A DNA stretch of 64,000 nucleotides, taken from positions 62,001-126,000 of the forward strand of contig NZ_VWNF01000001.1 of the NCBI RefSeq assembly GCF_008711175.1, given 5' to 3'. Below are positions 56,101-62,380 of the stretch, piece after piece; position 1 is the stretch's first letter, and each line of letters begins with the position of its first letter. The translations under genes were made by a program, and so were the position numbers. A model generated the notes under the pieces. It had not been told where the DNA came from and searched no databases. It saw only the letters and a list, made by a program, of their open reading frames with translations. This DNA is from Nesterenkonia ebinurensis (GTDB lineage: Bacteria > Actinomycetota > Actinomycetes > Actinomycetales > Micrococcaceae).

Positions 56101-56136
56101 CCCGAAGGCGCAGATCTCCAACCGATGGAACTTCAT
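53116..56136 (-). CDS. sbcC: exonuclease subunit SbcC (SMC-like ATPase)
   Basis: 1006-residue DNA-repair ATPase working with SbcD on hairpins and blocked ends. Walker A GQTGSGKTSVLDAI (near residue 35), two long Gln/Ala/Glu-rich coiled coils, the zinc hook CLVC in the middle (GEKCLVCGSTEHP), C-terminal signature SLSGGE and Walker B GLDSLFIDEGFGSLD. The start overlaps the sbcD stop (ATGA). The coiled coils are low in complexity, which produces many antisense open frames. Confidence 0.94.
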   Translation of the reverse strand: MKFHRLEICAFGPFAGTETVDFDALSVDGLFLLRGQTGSGKTSVLDAITFALYGDVPGERGSDGLKSQHAPAARRPYVELEFSRGQDRFRVRRVPRYWRPAKRAGAADQQEGPELFLERFEHHGWKSVAVHKIAEGDKELREILGLDMGEFTKVIMLPQGAFAQLMHASNEDRRKILEELFDIATYEQLEHYLWERKRESEGVLAELEVQISVQVASLRSGAQSLLGEEMPAVQELPAEELAAPLLRQAEHARTVLQSTSVKAEQAAQQAARQLEVMTRKDQELRRWADHLQLREAHETRRPVAASAQQRINAHRSAETLKVWLDRAERIQHIAVQKAEVREAAEQQAVQALAGQSDVAVGTVPDAAEEVADLKARLTDPEASGLEHKHAELVAGAAAADRAAAAAQKQVEQTQDELTDAQESLVTLQAQLISAEQTDQAVDQAQEVLTAAIAQAERAKQGEAARAQVTMLSDQHQAAAQQADSVQQAYRELSQGHLQSLAYELASTLEPGEKCLVCGSTEHPEPHAPEADTVTREQVDDAAEQLQQARSSRDTLAHRLQSAEQELQARREALGQAAYLSAEEAEVGKAQAARQLAASRRQRTEQRTLRQQAEELKEQISQLRQRCTTAQHSAEREAAEAARLKAEAEQLAVRLKALRGEYRSITARVAALDELHVVLKEAQAAQQQAEQSAADAAHSHTEAAQHLEGSIFDDAAAVTSAVLSAGELEQLEELTAQFASTEERLGFEAELEEVRAGRARAQVGEQQPQPEQLQAAAEQAEQAAAEYQNARDKLTEYTVQLAGLQRAADELATATADRAGQAEQTQWHAELAEAVRGTGGDNTRRMRLTTFVLAARLERVTEAATRHLSAMTEGRYRLLLDAERTGRGLRGLDLKVHDEYAEQERPAESLSGGEIFMAALSLALGLAETVQSESGGIGLDSLFIDEGFGSLDDQTLEAVMSALHTLQGEGRRIGVVSHVTEMHQQIPVQLKVTKTNTGSTLTTAGTV

Positions 56137-57434
56137 GCCCGCTCCCCCGTCAGCGCTGGTGCCGACCGGACCGCTTCCAAGGCCGCCTCCACGGTCTGCA
56201 GCTCCTCATCGGTGGGCTTCCGGTTCCGCACATGCTCCAAAAAACCAGCAACCACGTCGAGTTCGCTCTGCGCCTCATGCAGCTTCTGGGCATAGCTGCC
56301 CGCCTGCTGGGTGAGCCCAGCTCCGGCGTAGCTGTACTGCATGAGATGCGGATACACCTTGCGCAGCCGCTGGTAGGCCCGCACCGGGTTTTGATCGTCG
56401 GTGAGGACCACTTGGACGAAGTGCTCACAGAAGGCCTCCACTGTCCCGGGTTCCAGAATCTCTGCAATAGTTCCTCTGAGCCGTTTGACCGGGCGCCCGA
56501 TGCTCCAGTCCAGGCCAGTGACCGCGGCCTCCGGGTCATCCAGCAGCTGTGTGTCCACCAGCCAGGCTCCCTTGTGCTGGTTCTCCTCGGAGAAGGAGTA
56601 CCGGATAGGAGAGCCTGAGTAGCGGATCCGGTCAGTCAGCCGCTGCCGACCGTGCAGGTGGCCCAAGGCCGCATAATCAAAGCCTTCGAAGAGCTCCAGG
56701 GGCACCACAGCCAGCCCGCCCACACTTTCCTCATGATGCTCCAGAGTCTGTTCCGGCACCGCCGGTGCCCCAATACTGCGCTCGGATTCACTGGCCTGCC
56801 CGTGGGCAGCGAAGAGATGGGCCATCACCACCACCCTGGGCGGGGCGTCGTTCGCGCTGCCGCTCCCAGGGTTCTCAATCGCCTCGGAAGGCTCCGAGCC
56901 GGCTCGGGTCTTCGCGCGACTGAAACGGGCGCCGTCTCTCTGTGAGAGATCGGCGCGGATGCGGCCGATCACCTCAGTCATCACCGCGGTGTGGCTGGCT
57001 CGCTCCATGCCCAGCTCGGCGGCATAGACCTGCGGTTCCAGGTAGGGCACCCCGTAGACCAGCAGCCGCTCACCGTCACGGTCAATCTCCACCGGGGTCC
57101 AGGCCTCTTCCAGCCCGGAGCGGATATGCACTCCGGCGGCGGCGATCAGCTCCCGGTTCGCGCCCAGCCGCACCGCAGAGTCGTGGTTGCCGGAAGTGAC
57201 CACCACGGTGGCCCCGGCCTCACGCAGGCTGCGCAGACAGCTGCTGAGTTCGCGCACCGCCCATTCCGGAGGCAGCGCCCGGTCGAACACATCGCCCGAA
57301 ACCAGCACTACATCCACCTGGTGCTCCTGAACTGCAGCGCAGATCACCCGGATCATCTCCTGCTGGCTCTGACGCAGGTCTGTGCCGTGAAACCCGCGCC
57401 CCAGATGCCAGTCCGAGGTGTGCAGCAGCTTCAT
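56133..57434 (-). CDS. sbcD: exonuclease subunit SbcD, with in-frame repeat insert
   Basis: 433-residue Mre11-like nuclease. Metallophosphoesterase motifs: TSDWHLG (7-13), SGDVFDR (46-52), SGNHDS (81-86), MAHLF near 204, and GHLHGRQ later. Residues about 167-197 (DGARFSRAKTRAGS and EPSEAIENPGSG onward) are an extra 31 codons between the VIGRIRADL helix and the PPRVVVMAH strand; the same 93-bp element is found in two other genes of the window. The insert lies on a loop, so the fold should survive. Confidence 0.93.
   Translation of the reverse strand: MKLLHTSDWHLGRGFHGTDLRQSQQEMIRVICAAVQEHQVDVVLVSGDVFDRALPPEWAVRELSSCLRSLREAGATVVVTSGNHDSAVRLGANRELIAAAGVHIRSGLEEAWTPVEIDRDGERLLVYGVPYLEPQVYAAELGMERASHTAVMTEVIGRIRADLSQRDGARFSRAKTRAGSEPSEAIENPGSGSANDAPPRVVVMAHLFAAHGQASESERSIGAPAVPEQTLEHHEESVGGLAVVPLELFEGFDYAALGHLHGRQRLTDRIRYSGSPIRYSFSEENQHKGAWLVDTQLLDDPEAAVTGLDWSIGRPVKRLRGTIAEILEPGTVEAFCEHFVQVVLTDDQNPVRAYQRLRKVYPHLMQYSYAGAGLTQQAGSYAQKLHEAQSELDVVAGFLEHVRNRKPTDEELQTVEAALEAVRSAPALTGERA
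56844..56936 (-). repeat. 93-bp in-frame repeat, copy 1 (in sbcD)
   Basis: Aligns without gaps to 57928-58020 and to the complement of 62162-62254; core CCGAGGCGATTGAG identical in all three. Read in the same codon phase in all, giving the shared SEAIE/PEAIE motif. Confidence 0.85.
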
Positions 57435-57523
57435 CCTTCACCCTTCCCTTCGCTCACCCTCACCTTACGGCCCGCCCCGGAGATCGGAATTGTCGCAACC
57501 CCGGCTGACGGCGCATCCAGCGG

Positions 57524-57529
57524 TATCCT
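57524..57529 (+). promoter_or_regulatory. -10 element of a leaderless promoter
   Basis: TATCCT, 8 nt before the GTG at 57538, with no ribosome site between. Confidence 0.45.
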
Positions 57530-57537
57530 TACCCTTC

Positions 57538-58251
57538 GTGACACCTGAAACTGCCGCTGAGGCTCAGCTCATCGAGCGCTTCGAGCCGGTGATGCTCGGG
57601 CTGCTGCCGGGGCCGGACGAACCGGTGCATGCCGAGACGCTGCTGGCGCTGTGCCTGGCTGAGGGACTGGTGGAGATCCTCCAGTGGGCCAAGGAGGGCA
57701 CCGGGGCCGATCCGGCCGCGAGCATGTGGCTGGCCGCTCTGCGCTGGCACCGGATCATCACTGGCGGCTTCCCTGCAGGAGCCCCGGAGCCGCCGCCGCG
57801 TCCCACTGACCATGCTCTGAAGCTGATCCTGGACTCCGGAGGGGCGGAGGTCATCCCCGGCAGCGCCGATGCTTCCCTTGCCGGACTGGCCGACGGAGAG
57901 ATGAAAACCCCGGCAGACTGGACACGGGACGGTGACCGACTGGGCGGAGAGAATGCCCGCGCTGGCGCCAGGTCTTCCGAGGCGATTGAGGAAAGCCACA
58001 GCCGAAGGTCGGCCCATAAGACATTGATACGCACTGTGCCCATCAGTCTGGTGCCGTATGTGGGCACTGAGATGAAGCAGAACTGGGCAGCCGCAGCGGT
58101 CTGCCTCACCCACGGGCACCCTGAGCTGGTGGAGAAGGCACGACGCCGGGCCACAGACTTCCCTGCCCCCGCCGCTCCTGGAGCGCGCCACGAGCTGCTC
58201 ACTGTAGTGGTGGCGGACCTCGCCCGCCGCTGGAAGGAGACTACGGCTTAG
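57538..58251 (+). CDS. degenerate ADP-ribosylglycohydrolase-like protein with repeat insert
   Basis: 237 residues. Two parts recall actinobacterial ADP-ribosylglycohydrolases: LLALCLAEGLVEILQWAKEGTGADPAASMWLAALRW and, later, RTVPISLVPY with VCLTHGHPELV. The N-terminal GDALG metal motif and the KGCGTVMR block are missing, so catalysis is unlikely. Residues 131-161 are the 31-codon repeat element (DGDRLGGENARAGARSSEAI). Probably a decaying or repurposed gene; the open frame is intact. It diverges from sbcD and overlaps the next gene by 11 nt. Confidence 0.6.
   Translation: MTPETAAEAQLIERFEPVMLGLLPGPDEPVHAETLLALCLAEGLVEILQWAKEGTGADPAASMWLAALRWHRIITGGFPAGAPEPPPRPTDHALKLILDSGGAEVIPGSADASLAGLADGEMKTPADWTRDGDRLGGENARAGARSSEAIEESHSRRSAHKTLIRTVPISLVPYVGTEMKQNWAAAAVCLTHGHPELVEKARRRATDFPAPAAPGARHELLTVVVADLARRWKETTA
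57928..58020 (+). repeat. 93-bp in-frame repeat, copy 2
   Basis: Second member; shares GGTGACCGA and AGAG with copy 3 and the CCGAGGCGATTGAG core with both. By hand about 60 of 93 positions match pairwise. Confidence 0.85.
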
Positions 58252-59356
58252 GCAGGGGCCACTTCTCACCCAGCAACTCGCGGAAGGCTGATTCGGTCAG
58301 CAGCCGGATGGACTGGCCCTTTGCCCGGCGCGCCAGGACCTCGCGGACCTTGCGGGCCTGAAGTGGTGGGATGGCCCGGTTGTTCTCTGCGGCTTCGAGG
58401 TCCTGCAGGCCGACCCCGTCGCCGATCACCAGCATGGTAGTGGCGCCGATGACCTTGGATGAGGTGATGGCCCCGTGCTCGGCGGCCAGCGCCTTGGCAT
58501 CAGGCCGCGGAATGGCCAGGTTCCCGCTGAACACCAGATGCTGCCCGCAGAGCGGGTGCTCCGGGTCGGCTTCAGGGTTGGGCGGAAGGTTCCTGCCCTC
58601 GTCCTGCCAGCGCATCAGGTCCGGCAGCATCTCATCGCTGACACTTTCGGCTGCGGCGTCGAACAGCTGTGCGTAGCTGCGCGCCTGGCGGGTGGCACGG
58701 GACTCATAGGCCCGCGGAGAGCTCCAGGCCTCCAGCTCTTCAGCCTCGATCTGGTGGGCGGCGAAGAGCCGGTCCAGCTGGGTGACACGCTGCCGCTCGG
58801 CGATGTCCACCACGATGGCCGCAGCCGCCCGGGCGTCCCACAGCGCATGGTGGTGGTGTTTGAGCTGGAAGCCAGCCTCAGCCGCAGCCCTGGGCAGGGT
58901 ATGGGAGTCCAGCTGGTAGACCACCCGGGCCAGCCGCACCGAACACAGCGCCCGCAGTCCGCCCGGGGAGTCCAGCCCGGAGACCTCCAGGGCGGATTCG
59001 AAGACCTCCGTGTCAAAAGTCGCGTTGTGCGCCACCAGAATGTCGGTGCCGATGAACTCACGGATCTCCCCGAAGAGCTCGCTGAAGCGCGGCTCACCAG
59101 CCACCCGTTCCGGAGTGATCCCGTGGATCTCAACATTCCGGGGGTCAAACCGGTCGAACCCGGCCGGGGGCCGCATCCGCCTGAAGTACAGCTCGTCCAC
59201 GTTGCCGTCGCGGATGCGCACCATGCCGATGGCACAAGGGGAGCCGCGGAATCCGTTGGCGGTCTCGAAGTCCACGGCGGTGAAGTTCAGGCCCCTGACC
59301 CGCGGCGGGCGCAGTCCGGCCAGAGCACCGCCGAGCGGAGATGCTGATACTGCCAT
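58241..59356 (-). CDS. DnaQ-like exonuclease with BRCT domain
   Basis: 371 residues. N-terminal DEDDh exonuclease: AVDFETANG (Exo I), AHNATFDTEVF (Exo II), HHALWDARAAA (Exo III). C-terminal BRCT domain: HPLCGQHLVFSGNLAIPRPDAKALAAEHG in two parts, with VGDG-type loop. Such fusions resemble the epsilon-like proofreading or repair exonucleases of actinobacteria; role in DNA repair is inferred. Overlaps the preceding convergent gene by 11 nt; rdgB ends 3 nt away on the same strand. Confidence 0.85.
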   Translation of the reverse strand: MAVSASPLGGALAGLRPPRVRGLNFTAVDFETANGFRGSPCAIGMVRIRDGNVDELYFRRMRPPAGFDRFDPRNVEIHGITPERVAGEPRFSELFGEIREFIGTDILVAHNATFDTEVFESALEVSGLDSPGGLRALCSVRLARVVYQLDSHTLPRAAAEAGFQLKHHHHALWDARAAAAIVVDIAERQRVTQLDRLFAAHQIEAEELEAWSSPRAYESRATRQARSYAQLFDAAAESVSDEMLPDLMRWQDEGRNLPPNPEADPEHPLCGQHLVFSGNLAIPRPDAKALAAEHGAITSSKVIGATTMLVIGDGVGLQDLEAAENNRAIPPLQARKVREVLARRAKGQSIRLLTESAFRELLGEKWPLPKP

Positions 59357-59359
59357 GTG

Positions 59360-60025
59360 CTAACTCAGCACCTCCACGATGCGCGGGGCCAGCTGGGCGA
59401 AGGCCTGGCCGCGGTGCGAGATGGCGTTCTTCTCCGCCATCGGCAGCTCCGCGCAGGAGCGGGTCTCACTCACCGGCTGCAGCACCGGATCGTAGCCGAA
59501 ACCGCCCTCACCTCGTTCCTCGGTGAGCAGCCTACCTTCCAGTCGCCCTTCGGCAGTGAACTCAGCCGGGGCGGCGTCGTGATCTGTTCCTGGCACCACC
59601 AGGGAGGCCACACAGACAAAGGCGGCGGCACGGTGCTCTGCGGGGATATCTGTCAGCTGCTGAAGCAGCAGCTGACGGTTGGTCTCATCGCTGGCGGCCG
59701 CACCGGCCCAGCGTGCTGAGAAGACGCCCGGCGCTCCATTCAGCACCTCCACGGCGAGGCCGGAGTCATCGGCCACCGCCGGCAGTCCGGTCTGCTGCGC
59801 CACGGTGCGAGCCTTCAGCAGGGAGTTCTGCTCGAAGCTCACCCCGGTCTCCGGGATATCCCCCACCCCGGCGCTGGCGGCATCGACGACCACCCGCTCC
59901 AGGTCCAGATGGCCCAGCTGGGGCTGGTCGGCCAGCAGAGCGCGGAACTCGCGCAGTTTGCCCGGGTTGGAGGTGGCCAACACAATCCGGGCACCCTGCG
60001 GAGCGGTGTTCACCGGAACGCTCAT
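59360..60025 (-). CDS. rdgB: XTP/dITP diphosphatase
   Basis: 221-residue house-cleaning pyrophosphatase removing non-canonical purine NTPs. Motifs: [11 protein letters not shown] (17-27), [31 protein letters not shown] and GFGYDPV, then SHRGQA at the end. Overlaps rph by 4 nt, as in many actinobacteria. Confidence 0.95.
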
Positions 60026-60762
60026 TCGGCCAGGGCCTGCCGCTGGATATCGGTAAGCTGGGCACAGCCGGCCACAGCCAGGTCCAGCAGCTCATTGAGC
60101 TGGTCACGGCTGAAGGGGGTACCCTCGGCGGTGCCCTGGACCTCCACGAAGTCCCCGGAGCCGGTGACCACCACATTCATATCGGTGCCCGCTGTGGAGT
60201 CCTCCCCATAGGGCAGATCCAGCACCGCAGTGCCGTCGGGCAGCACGCCCACTGAGATCGCGGAGACCGAGTCGGTGAGCACCTCGGCGCGCTTACGGAC
60301 GTGGCCCTCGGCGCGGGCCCATTCGATGGCGTCCGCCAGGGCCACAAACGCCCCGGTGATCGCAGCGGTGCGGGTGCCTCCGTCGGCCTGCAGCACATCG
60401 CAGTCCAGGGTGATCATGTTCTCTCCCAGGGATTCTAAGTCCACTACCGCGCGCAGCGACCGGCCGATCAGCCGGGAGATTTCGTGGGTGCGACCGCCGA
60501 TTTTGCCCTTGACCGCCTCCCGGGAGTTCCGGGTGTTGGTGGCCCTGGGCAGCATGGCGTACTCGGCGGTGACCCAGCCGCGGCCCTGGCCCCTGAGCCA
60601 GCGCGGCACCTCGGACTCGAAGCTGGCGGTGCACAGCACCCGGGTGTTCCCGAATTCGATCAGAGCGCTGCCCTCGGCGTGGGCGGACCAGTTCCGGGTG
60701 ATGGACACCTCGCGCAGCTGGTCGATGCTGCGCCCGTCAGCGCGTGCGTACTTCTGACTCAT
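60022..60762 (-). CDS. rph: ribonuclease PH
   Basis: 246-residue phosphorolytic 3' exoribonuclease trimming tRNA precursors. [15 protein letters not shown] opening, [34 protein letters not shown] and the phosphate site [15 protein letters not shown] are all present. Upstream MBL gene is 45 nt away. Homohexamer in the family. Confidence 0.96.
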
Positions 60763-60806
60763 GAACCCTCCTGCATGAACTTCTCTGGGGATATTTTCTC
60801 CACGTT

Positions 60807-61607
60807 TCAGATCTGATAGGTGACTCCGGCGGCGGCCACCGCAATATTTCCGTCATATCGCTTGGCGGCGTGCTCCCGCACCACCGCTGCGTCGGTCCAG
60901 GCGGGGATATGGGTCAGCAGCAGCCGGCCAACTCCGGCTTCGGCGGCTGCAGCCCCGGCCCGGTCGCCGTTGAGGTGAATGCCTTCCAGCTCCTCATCAC
61001 GGTCGTCCTGGTAGGCGGCTTCGCAGAGGAACACGTCGGCCCCCTGGGCGGCTTCGATGAGCCCTTCGCAGCTGTCGGTGTCACCGGAGTAGGCGAGTAT
61101 CCGGGTTCCGGGGCCATCCCCTGGGGCGCCGTCGTCAGCTACCTCGATGCGCAGTGCGTAGGGCTCCTCGATAGGGTGCCGGACGATCACCGGGGTGATC
61201 CGGAACGGACCGATCTCAGCGGTCGCCCCCGGCGTCCAGGTGCGGAAGTCGAACTCAGAGTGCATACCCGGGTCAGGTTCAATCCCGTGGGCCACCGCAA
61301 TCCGCTCATCGGTGCCCGCCGGTCCGTAGACCGGGATCCTTTCGGCAGGCCAGCCGCCGGGGCGCCATTTGACCGCTATGTGCAGCCCGGTCAGATCCAT
61401 GTAGTGGTCAGGGTGCAGGTGGCTCAGGCACACTGCGTCTAAGTCCTCCAGCGCGATGTGCTTCTGCAGCGGTCCCAACGCTCCGCTGCCCAAGTCAAGA
61501 GCGATCCGCCAGGTGCGGCCGGCGTGCTCGTGGCTGACCAGGTAGCAGCTTGCCGCTGAGTGCGGTCCCGGGAAGGACCCGCTGCAGCCGATGATCGTCA
61601 GTTTCAT
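60807..61607 (-). CDS. metallo-beta-lactamase-fold phosphodiesterase, Rv1339-like
   Basis: 266-residue MBL-fold hydrolase with the zinc motif [10 protein letters not shown] (near residue 82), a [11 protein letters not shown] strand and LLLTHIPAW near the end. Position between rph and the clpS block matches mycobacterial Rv1339, reported as an atypical cyclic-AMP phosphodiesterase; RNase Z-like activity is another option. Cytosolic; ATG start at 61607. Confidence 0.87.
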
Positions 61608-61648
61608 ATGTGGCTCAGCATAGCGGCACTGGGAGTCCGGCGTGATAT

Positions 61649-62380
61649 TCAGTCCTGGTCTGCGACATCGCCTTCGGCATCGGGTATCACCTCCAGCATC
61701 GCGGAGAACAGAGTCTCCTGCAGCCAGGTGGAAAAGGCGTAGAGCTCGGCCATGAAGTCATCGGTGGTGGCGGCCCGGCCGCGTCCGGCCCGCTGGTGGA
61801 CCTGCTCGGCATCGGCCTCGTCCTCGATGCCCAGGCGGGCGGCCAGAGTCAGCCGCACATCGTTGAGTGCACGGCCGAACACCGGGGCCTGCTCCTCGGT
61901 CAGCGTCACCGGGTCCGATTCCAGGGCCAGCCGGGCTGCCCGCAGATCAGCGATCTTGGACTCACGCAGCGAGGACTCGGCCAGCCGGCGGAACTGAGCC
62001 GCTTCTTCTGGGTCAGAGGAGGCCTCCGGCAGCAGCCGGGCCAGCGCAGGATCGGATGGGGGTACCACGCCGTCTGCTTCAGTCTCCTCCCCCAGGCCTG
62101 CTCCCAGTCCGGCCAGCTCCCGGCGGAAGTGGACGAAGGGGTCGTCTCCGGGCTCCTGGGCGGTGTCGGCGAACCTGCGGTTCGTCGTTCCCTCAATCGC
62201 CTCGGGAGGCTCCGCATCGCTGCGAGTCTCCTCTCGGCTCAATCGGTCACCGCTCACTTCCTGCGTCCTCTGCTCCAGCATGGTGATCACATCGGCGCAG
62301 AGCTGGGAGAGCAGGCGCCGCTCATGGGACTCCAGGTCTGCCTTATAGCCGCGGGTGGTGGCGCGGAATGCCCGAGCCAT
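61649..62380 (-). CDS. DUF2017 family protein with repeat insert
   Basis: 243 residues; helical protein encoded next to clpS as in most actinobacteria. RAFRATTRGYKADLESHERRLLSQLCADVITML opens the domain and DPFVHFRREL, then NDVRLTLAARLGI and WLQETLFSAML close it. Residues about 43-73 (GDRLSREETRSDAEPPEAIE onward) are the 93-bp repeat element, lying in the linker after the first helix. Function unknown; genomic linkage suggests a tie to Clp proteolysis. Confidence 0.85.
   Translation of the reverse strand: MARAFRATTRGYKADLESHERRLLSQLCADVITMLEQRTQEVSGDRLSREETRSDAEPPEAIEGTTNRRFADTAQEPGDDPFVHFRRELAGLGAGLGEETEADGVVPPSDPALARLLPEASSDPEEAAQFRRLAESSLRESKIADLRAARLALESDPVTLTEEQAPVFGRALNDVRLTLAARLGIEDEADAEQVHQRAGRGRAATTDDFMAELYAFSTWLQETLFSAMLEVIPDAEGDVADQD
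62162..62254 (-). repeat. 93-bp in-frame repeat, copy 3 (in the DUF2017 gene)
   Basis: Third member of the element, same codon phase as the others. GATTGAG occurs twice in it, and GCCTCCCGAGGC can form a 4-bp stem. Confidence 0.85.

Follow-up and report, generated by a model that had tools for sequence, protein, structure and literature searches.

Mobile palindromes that contribute coding sequence to the genes they occupy have so far been described as a peculiarity of Rickettsia, together with repetitive extragenic palindromes (REPs) in genes of some other bacteria. Rickettsia palindromic elements (RPEs) are small repeats with a fold, dispersed and in many cases inserted in frame into unrelated genes, according to the available portions of two accounts (PMC10969869, PMC3733652). 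REPs of the GTAG and CGTC families, with their RAYT transposases, are short palindromes of 20-40 bp with a terminal tag, some of which lie in genes of R. conorii, O. terrae and other bacteria (PMC3733652, in its available part). In the main text of the latter, as available, the word stem 'actinobact' does not occur, and the titles and abstract openings surveyed in partial listings of open-licence PMC papers contain no actinobacterial in-gene element, which agrees with the remark of an earlier note on this DNA that no such family was known in actinobacteria. Here we analyse a stretch of 64,000 nucleotides from Nesterenkonia ebinurensis (contig NZ_VWNF01000001.1, positions 62,001 to 126,000; hereafter the window), in which three unrelated genes, sbcD, an open reading frame (ORF) near 57.5 kb and a DUF2017 gene, each contain a copy of one repeat. 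The three stretches are members of a dispersed repeat family, about 75-96 bp in length, and we consider it probable (roughly 0.7) that the family consists of small non-autonomous structured mobile elements that have multiplied in one Nesterenkonia lineage. The observations behind this reading are dispersed matches, orthologous sites that are mostly empty, copies edged by GAC, a host reading frame that is kept and a covarying hairpin.

The 93-bp repeat that the earlier note described in the three genes is real. Compared pairwise and gap-free, the three 93-mers agree at 55, 59 and 60 of 93 bases, whereas in-frame 93-mer pairs taken from other parts of these genes agree at no more than 47, 48 and 45. 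The common core CCGAGGCGATTGAG is exact at all three places, and the SEAIE, SEAIE and PEAIE peptides that the note had read are in frame in the three genes. The genome search that the note had proposed brings up further copies, and a covariance model finds about 100 of them in what is a draft assembly of 3.74 Mb in 50 contigs, 98.65% complete. A nucleotide search with the DUF2017 copy returned at least 40 matches including itself (worst E 0.0058, with every scored candidate matching). The covariance model, R1, was built from an alignment, A1, of 26 copies (33 loci minus three duplicates and six irregular ones, plus two window copies), and it identifies at least 119 places at E<=1 and at least 110 at E<=0.01 among the 150 of 3064 first-look candidates that were scored, the best E-values reaching 1e-16; two of the 119 places, C10:6684 and C10:6732, overlap. 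The exact 13-base half-site CGATTGAGSCGAG occurs 34 times in the genome and its backward control not once; 32 of these occurrences fall within model matches, and the other two (C42:72529 and C42:215258) look by eye like decayed halves. Copies are 69-92% identical over the matched parts in the nucleotide search, with a mean column identity of 72% in A1, and 110 copies can be sorted by their tails into 20 of type A, 31 of type B and 59 others.

Thirty genomes of the genus were examined, that of the window (G000) and those of 29 congeners. R1 at E<=0.01 finds 35 matches in N. muleiensis RB2 (G426), 18 in N. alkaliphila F10 (G015) and one or two in each of five others (G001, G002, G004, G013 and G427). 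The remaining 22 of the 29 congeners have no match, nor has any of 14 genomes from other genera of the order; a wider model, R2, adds within the order G354, which is plausible, and G240, which is doubtful. The residues encoded by the inserts, which the earlier note had proposed to look for in orthologues, are missing from SbcD in 12 of 12 congeners and from the DUF2017 protein likewise in 12 of 12. Both sites are variable in length in these 12 congeners, the DUF2017 linkers of G002 and G004 being longer in their own right. Such length variation among orthologues supports, indirectly, the suggestion that the inserts lie in loops, which stays a prediction; the SbcD insert could not be placed on solved structures, since alignments to them end at residue 149 and resume at 238. 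The site near 57.5 kb cannot be kept as an insertion of this genome alone, because N. muleiensis carries a copy there too.

Insertions are equally visible in protein alignments of nine further hosts, each compared with one to five relatives; Acc, for example, reads GLY-NDE-APGAG in a relative and GLYDD-ARLSRERPGAGSESSEAAEGRERSD-VAPGTG in the window's genome, and the edges of the insert are less sharp in MnmA, TrmD and ProC. A search of five congeners with the flanks of 16 sites joined together showed 12 of the 16 to be contiguous, that is, empty, in N. alkaliphila. The site in glycine decarboxylase is filled by an orthologous copy in N. muleiensis, and this copy is missing in N. alkaliphila. 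Both flanks are held in common with window-genome copies in three of 13 N. alkaliphila and two of 10 N. muleiensis copies tested, and from this mixture of shared and unshared sites it follows that some insertions predate these species and others are private. MnmA of N. muleiensis (L289) has a weak, oppositely oriented match close to the position that the copy occupies in the window's genome, which suggests that one target was hit twice independently.

Whether the copies lie in genes was judged for the 113 of the 119 places that have flanks, by a codon score over 150 bp on either side. By this score 31 of the 113 lie clearly in genes, with an identical coding frame on both sides and no stop. 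The earlier note held that the copies are read on one strand and in one phase, which is so for 25 of the 31 (Asp|..CGA TTG AGC..); the other six lie on the opposite strand, distributed three, two and one across its three frames, and the regularity itself is mostly an effect of the target, as discussed below. The remaining 82 copies comprise two with a shared frame containing a stop, seven whose coding flanks disagree, 52 with one coding flank and 21 with none, these last being the copies outside a coding context for which the note had proposed to look; the sbcD copy is counted among those with one flank because its downstream codon score is ambiguous, the ORF itself being open. Hosts other than the three in the window, to which the Pfam run was confined, were named by eye among the translations listed. 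They include IleRS, glycine decarboxylase, an acyl-CoA carboxylase subunit, MnmA, TrmD, DapF, RsmB, Rho, RNase E/G, LigD, NnrE and a PP2C phosphatase; ProC and galactokinase were named among the copies that have one scored flank.

The frame is kept by in-gene copies, which lengthen the predicted host ORF by about 24-33 codons and do not truncate it. In the two remaining sense frames, 101 and 91 of the 113 copies contain a stop. The Nesterenkonia frame is open, in the window's genome, in 15 of the 20 copies that have no coding flank and in 24 of 24 in-gene copies, the latter figure following from how that class was chosen; outside the genus it is open in 15 of 38. The Nesterenkonia form of the element is thus mostly readable even where it is not read. 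Four model matches lie within 7 kb at C46:92883-99688, at least two of them in frame in adjacent metabolic genes. A peptide subfamily of the form CxxC-x9-CPxC is encoded by nine of the 113 copies, three of them clearly in genes (examples are C33:305886, C1:53181 and C1:591931), and Pfam zinc-ribbon models match these peptides at scores below their cut-offs; the motif may be a by-product of the palindromes, because the cysteines come from TGC in two hairpins.

The empty sites also point to what is being entered. At seven of ten sites inspected at the DNA level, GACGAC, usually as part of GACGACGCC, stands at the junction in at least one relative, and GAC or GACGCC lies on both sides of the element in many filled sites in a flank table of 110 copies; these direct repeats at the edges, together with the GACGACGCC empty sites, might reflect a target duplication, somewhere between 2 and 6 bp long. 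In two SbcD relatives the site reads CACGACGCC or nearly so. Read in phase, GACGACGCC is Asp-Asp-Ala (GAC GAC GCC), and among its occurrences outside elements (90 seen in about 372 kb of the genome) it has the sense phase of the element in 28 of the 44 that could be classified as coding. Since empty sites are often GACGACGCC, which is itself mostly in that phase, target preference accounts for most of the phase bias, and it plausibly accounts for the placing of copies in acidic linkers as well. In explaining the single phase, selection for the peptide has been largely displaced by target specificity in this comparison, and the difference between 25 of 31 copies and 28 of 44 background occurrences may reflect a residual effect of such selection.

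From 5' to 3' the element consists of the left arm of helix P1 (ACNNN), CGATTGAG, helix P2 (either GCC/GGC or GGC/GCC, next to a GA/AG step), the variable hairpin P3, whose tip is often CTTG, a second CGATTGA, the right arm of P1 (NNNGT) and, 3' of it, a second hairpin, P4; by eye the two copies of CGATTGAG face each other as a symmetric internal loop. The earlier note had proposed a search for RNA structure, and a covarying fold was found. RNAalifold on A1 gives a hairpin with two-sided changes in six of 12 pairs, and in a broader alignment, A4 (28 sequences gathered by a search pattern that fixed their ends and not the hairpin, 22 of them from Nesterenkonia, with 20 pairs counted), 83.9% of cells are paired and 99 cells show two-sided changes, vs 35.5 after shuffling, a value that none of 500 shuffles attained and that slid controls approached with at most 38. 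Outside the genus 35 of 39 copies start with AC, and P1 is paired at five of five positions in 27 of the 39, where shuffles average 5.6 and reach at most 13 in 2000 trials, the best of four offsets being taken for observed and shuffled sequences alike. Two copies, L138 of N. alkaliphila and L143 of N. muleiensis, have beside CGATTGAG an NNN that is unlike the right-hand copy of the target but can pair with the right arm; this suggests that the duplication is confined to GAC (or AC), NNN being part of the element. A longer outer stem seems to be present in the copies whose left edge is GCGGGCGACC or GAGACC (L133, L144 and copies in the window's genome that have no coding flanks), and these may form a separate, mostly non-coding subfamily.

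Relatives of the element occur well beyond Nesterenkonia. A pattern scan of GTDB r220 contigs gave 22 stretches, 14 from three Nesterenkonia species and eight from elsewhere, one of which, in Malikia (L135), was judged a chance match to the pattern and dropped. R2 at E<=1e-4 matches 22 of 394 genomes and 16 of 137 genera of the class, the window's own genome and genus included and three genomes (G240, G263 and G212) being doubtful for their poor core match (19-20 of 26). Outside the genus the element starts 0-12 nt after a tRNA gene on the same strand at 15 of 43 loci, or at 14 of the 39 whose core is good, and in 11 of the 15 it lies exactly 3 nt from the end called by ARAGORN; the loci are not all independent, since a single genome may contribute several. 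The preceding tRNAs are tRNA-Leu, Met, Ala, Val, Glu and Phe; tRNA-Leu(GAG) recurs in three members of one genus (G103, G215 and G307) and tRNA-Leu(TAA) in three of another. Tandem units are found in at least two genera, and at L240 (G391) and L166 (G103) they lie directly behind tRNA-Leu genes. Rfam 15 at gathering score reported only tRNAs in the window and nine loci, and with lax settings nothing over the element in three loci; no match came from one pattern scan of viral contigs, or from a single 100-base query run against plasmids and another run against phages.

How such an element might move can be outlined. It would be recognised as a folded single strand, of DNA or, less likely, of RNA, by an enzyme acting in trans, and would be inserted beside an AC step able to pair with the element's conserved GT in helix P1 (ACNNN/NNNGT); purifying selection would then clear copies that break a frame or do damage. 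One-phase insertions in tolerant places would result because in this GC-rich genome GACGACGCC is mostly Asp-Asp-Ala and tends to fall in acidic variable linkers, and related elements elsewhere in the class would use tRNA 3' ends and other sites instead. A more ambitious proposal, which we put forward tentatively and regard as less likely than not when taken as a whole, is that of an undescribed mobile element of actinobacteria, class-wide in range, at home at tRNA 3' ends and choosing its target through GT-AC pairing, which in Nesterenkonia switched to GAC-GAC-GCC, became readable as protein and so placed a standard peptide, zinc-ribbon-like in the CxxC..CPxC subfamily, in at least about 30 unrelated proteins, moved by an enzyme outside the three families searched.

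Several results weigh against the main reading, that of small structured mobile elements, or against parts of it. None of the three enzyme families offers an obvious mobiliser: Y1_Tnp (PF01797) has no match in the window's genome, N. alkaliphila or N. muleiensis and occurs in one of the 30 genus genomes, RVT_1 (PF00078) has none in the window's genome, and IS110 (PF01548) occurs in 19 of the 30 with no visible link to the element, so that both RAYT and IS110 were set aside as mobilisers. No long autonomous version, with a gene between two half-sites, exists among the 34 exact half-sites, and, given the divergence of the copies, no very recent jump is seen. Four of the 16 sites could not be called empty in N. 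alkaliphila: the TrmD site is split into two pieces that have no model match in between, NnrE and CcsB are matched by a single flank, and the citrate-synthase-like site is not matched at all. Both N. muleiensis and N. alkaliphila were also checked for copies at these and other sites, and a number of sites proved to be filled in one or the other. Relatives have no GACGAC at the SbcD, GcvP and ProC sites. With regard to the fold, 15 of the 20 pairs in A4 show two-sided changes, a number reached in 16 of 500 shuffles, and P1 is paired in only 55.7% of cells in that register; the suggested assignment of the NNN of P1 to the element rather than to the target comes from few copies. The frames depend on a home-made codon score derived from nine long open stretches of the window, and translation of the inserts as a protein segment is a prediction from ORFs.

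Chance similarity of disordered acidic linkers was considered as an explanation, and SbcD and the DUF2017 protein do have variable linkers at the site; the number of places at E<=0.01 and the E-values down to 1e-16, an identical DNA core in copies without coding flanks and the clean insertions make it vanishingly improbable, and the genome-wide copies and empty sites together rule out both chance and a shared domain. It is very unlikely, too, that the family is a cis-acting structured RNA, such as a module that serves termination or the processing of tRNA 3' ends, which recombination multiplied on one occasion in Nesterenkonia and which is not itself mobile. The tRNA-Leu(GAG) and tRNA-Leu(TAA) loci, three members to a genus, look vertically kept as this would predict, but about 100 dispersed copies, a target preference and empty orthologous sites speak against it, as do the six kinds of tRNA involved and the 28 of 43 loci outside the genus that do not lie directly behind a tRNA.

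Two other explanations accept mobility and assign it to different machinery. The repeats might be double-stranded miniature inverted-repeat transposable elements (MITEs) that belong to an ordinary DDE insertion sequence and duplicate a short piece of the target, the hairpin being incidental, and the short direct repeats that flank many inserts would suit this, as would the in-frame fusions known for MITEs (PMC10969869, in its available part). We nevertheless consider it unlikely, given that inspection of the flank table (110 copies) by eye reveals no terminal inverted repeats, that no parent element was found among the three enzyme families searched and that the internal stems covary across genera, as those of a MITE would not be expected to do. 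Alternatively the mobile form could be a folded RNA, derived for instance from tRNA 3' trailers, that inserts by a process like reverse splicing, is copied by a reverse transcriptase and is perhaps removed from the mRNA. Stem covariation, the CTTG tip of the hairpin, the loci that begin at tRNA 3' ends and insertion that is strand-specific relative to the target are all in keeping with RNA, and RVT_1 is found in three of eight carriers (three matches in N. alkaliphila, four in N. muleiensis and three in G001) vs three of 22 non-carriers. The richest carrier, however, is the window's genome itself, which, in a draft 98.65% complete, has no RVT_1, and frame-keeping would be needless if inserts left the mRNA; we think movement at the RNA level improbable. 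The reading we favour is the small structured element acted on in trans, more probably as single-stranded DNA than as RNA.

The three window copies are placed here in the register of the genome-wide family. The copy in sbcD (56840-56935, minus strand; R1 86.0 bits) covers approximately residues 167-198 of the protein; its 5' half is decayed, its 3' half and the tail GCGCGAACGACGCC are intact, and the exact core, which forms the 3' half of the fold, lies at 56874-56887 on the same strand. Its host (56133-57434, minus strand), exonuclease SbcCD subunit D, has the Pfam domains Metallophos and SbcD_C and stays open across the insert. The second copy (57929-58024, plus strand; 71.9 bits; core at 57977-57990, plus) lies in an ORF at 57418-58251 on the plus strand, with an uncertain start and a product of weak ADP-ribosylglycohydrolase similarity (PF03747 at 21.5 bits, under the Pfam cut-off of 26.2). 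The third (62158-62253, minus strand; 91.3 bits; core at 62192-62205, minus) has the complete consensus core CCGATTGAGCCGAG..CCGAGGCGATTGAG and lies in the DUF2017 gene (61649-62380, minus strand; PF09438 at 163 bits), which likewise stays open across it.

Short, dispersed, without a transposase gene and with short direct repeats at its edges, the element resembles MITEs, from which it differs in having no terminal inverted repeats of 15-30 bp by eye, in its covarying internal stems and in the failure to find a parent insertion sequence among the three enzyme families searched; from group II introns and other retroelements it is set apart by the lack of a reverse transcriptase match in the window's genome. 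IS200/IS605 elements transpose as single strands with folded ends, and their target motif is read by pairing with the element. A fold and a target motif putatively base-paired with the element are likenesses to that system, and the differences are that the main carriers have no PF01797 enzyme and that the presumed guide here lies 3' of the hairpin. Compared with REPs, the unit is larger (75-96 bp, with two hairpins) and has no terminal GTAG or CGTC tag, the GACG at its edge being target sequence that is present in empty sites, and the window's genome, N. alkaliphila and N. muleiensis have no Y1 transposase of the RAYT kind.

What is new is a GC-rich actinobacterium with 31 clear in-frame insertions, aminoacyl-tRNA synthetase and tRNA-modification genes included, for which close relatives supply the empty sites. 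New, too, is an element that Rfam 15 did not match, structured and covarying and in many cases located at tRNA ends, which at least a dozen further actinobacterial genera share. Cultured carriers such as N. muleiensis RB2 or N. alkaliphila F10 would open movement, translation, the tolerance of proteins for the inserts and their later use to experiment. The likeness to RPEs drawn by the earlier note is borne out as a resemblance in behaviour: like them this is a dispersed repeat with a strong fold that lies in frame in unrelated protein genes and keeps the frame of its hosts. It differs from them in being actinobacterial, GC-rich and 75-96 bp long, against the roughly 150 bp given for RPEs in the available part of that literature, and in its GACGACGCC target, its internal loop of facing CGATTGAG/CGATTGAG copies and its relatives at tRNA 3' ends.

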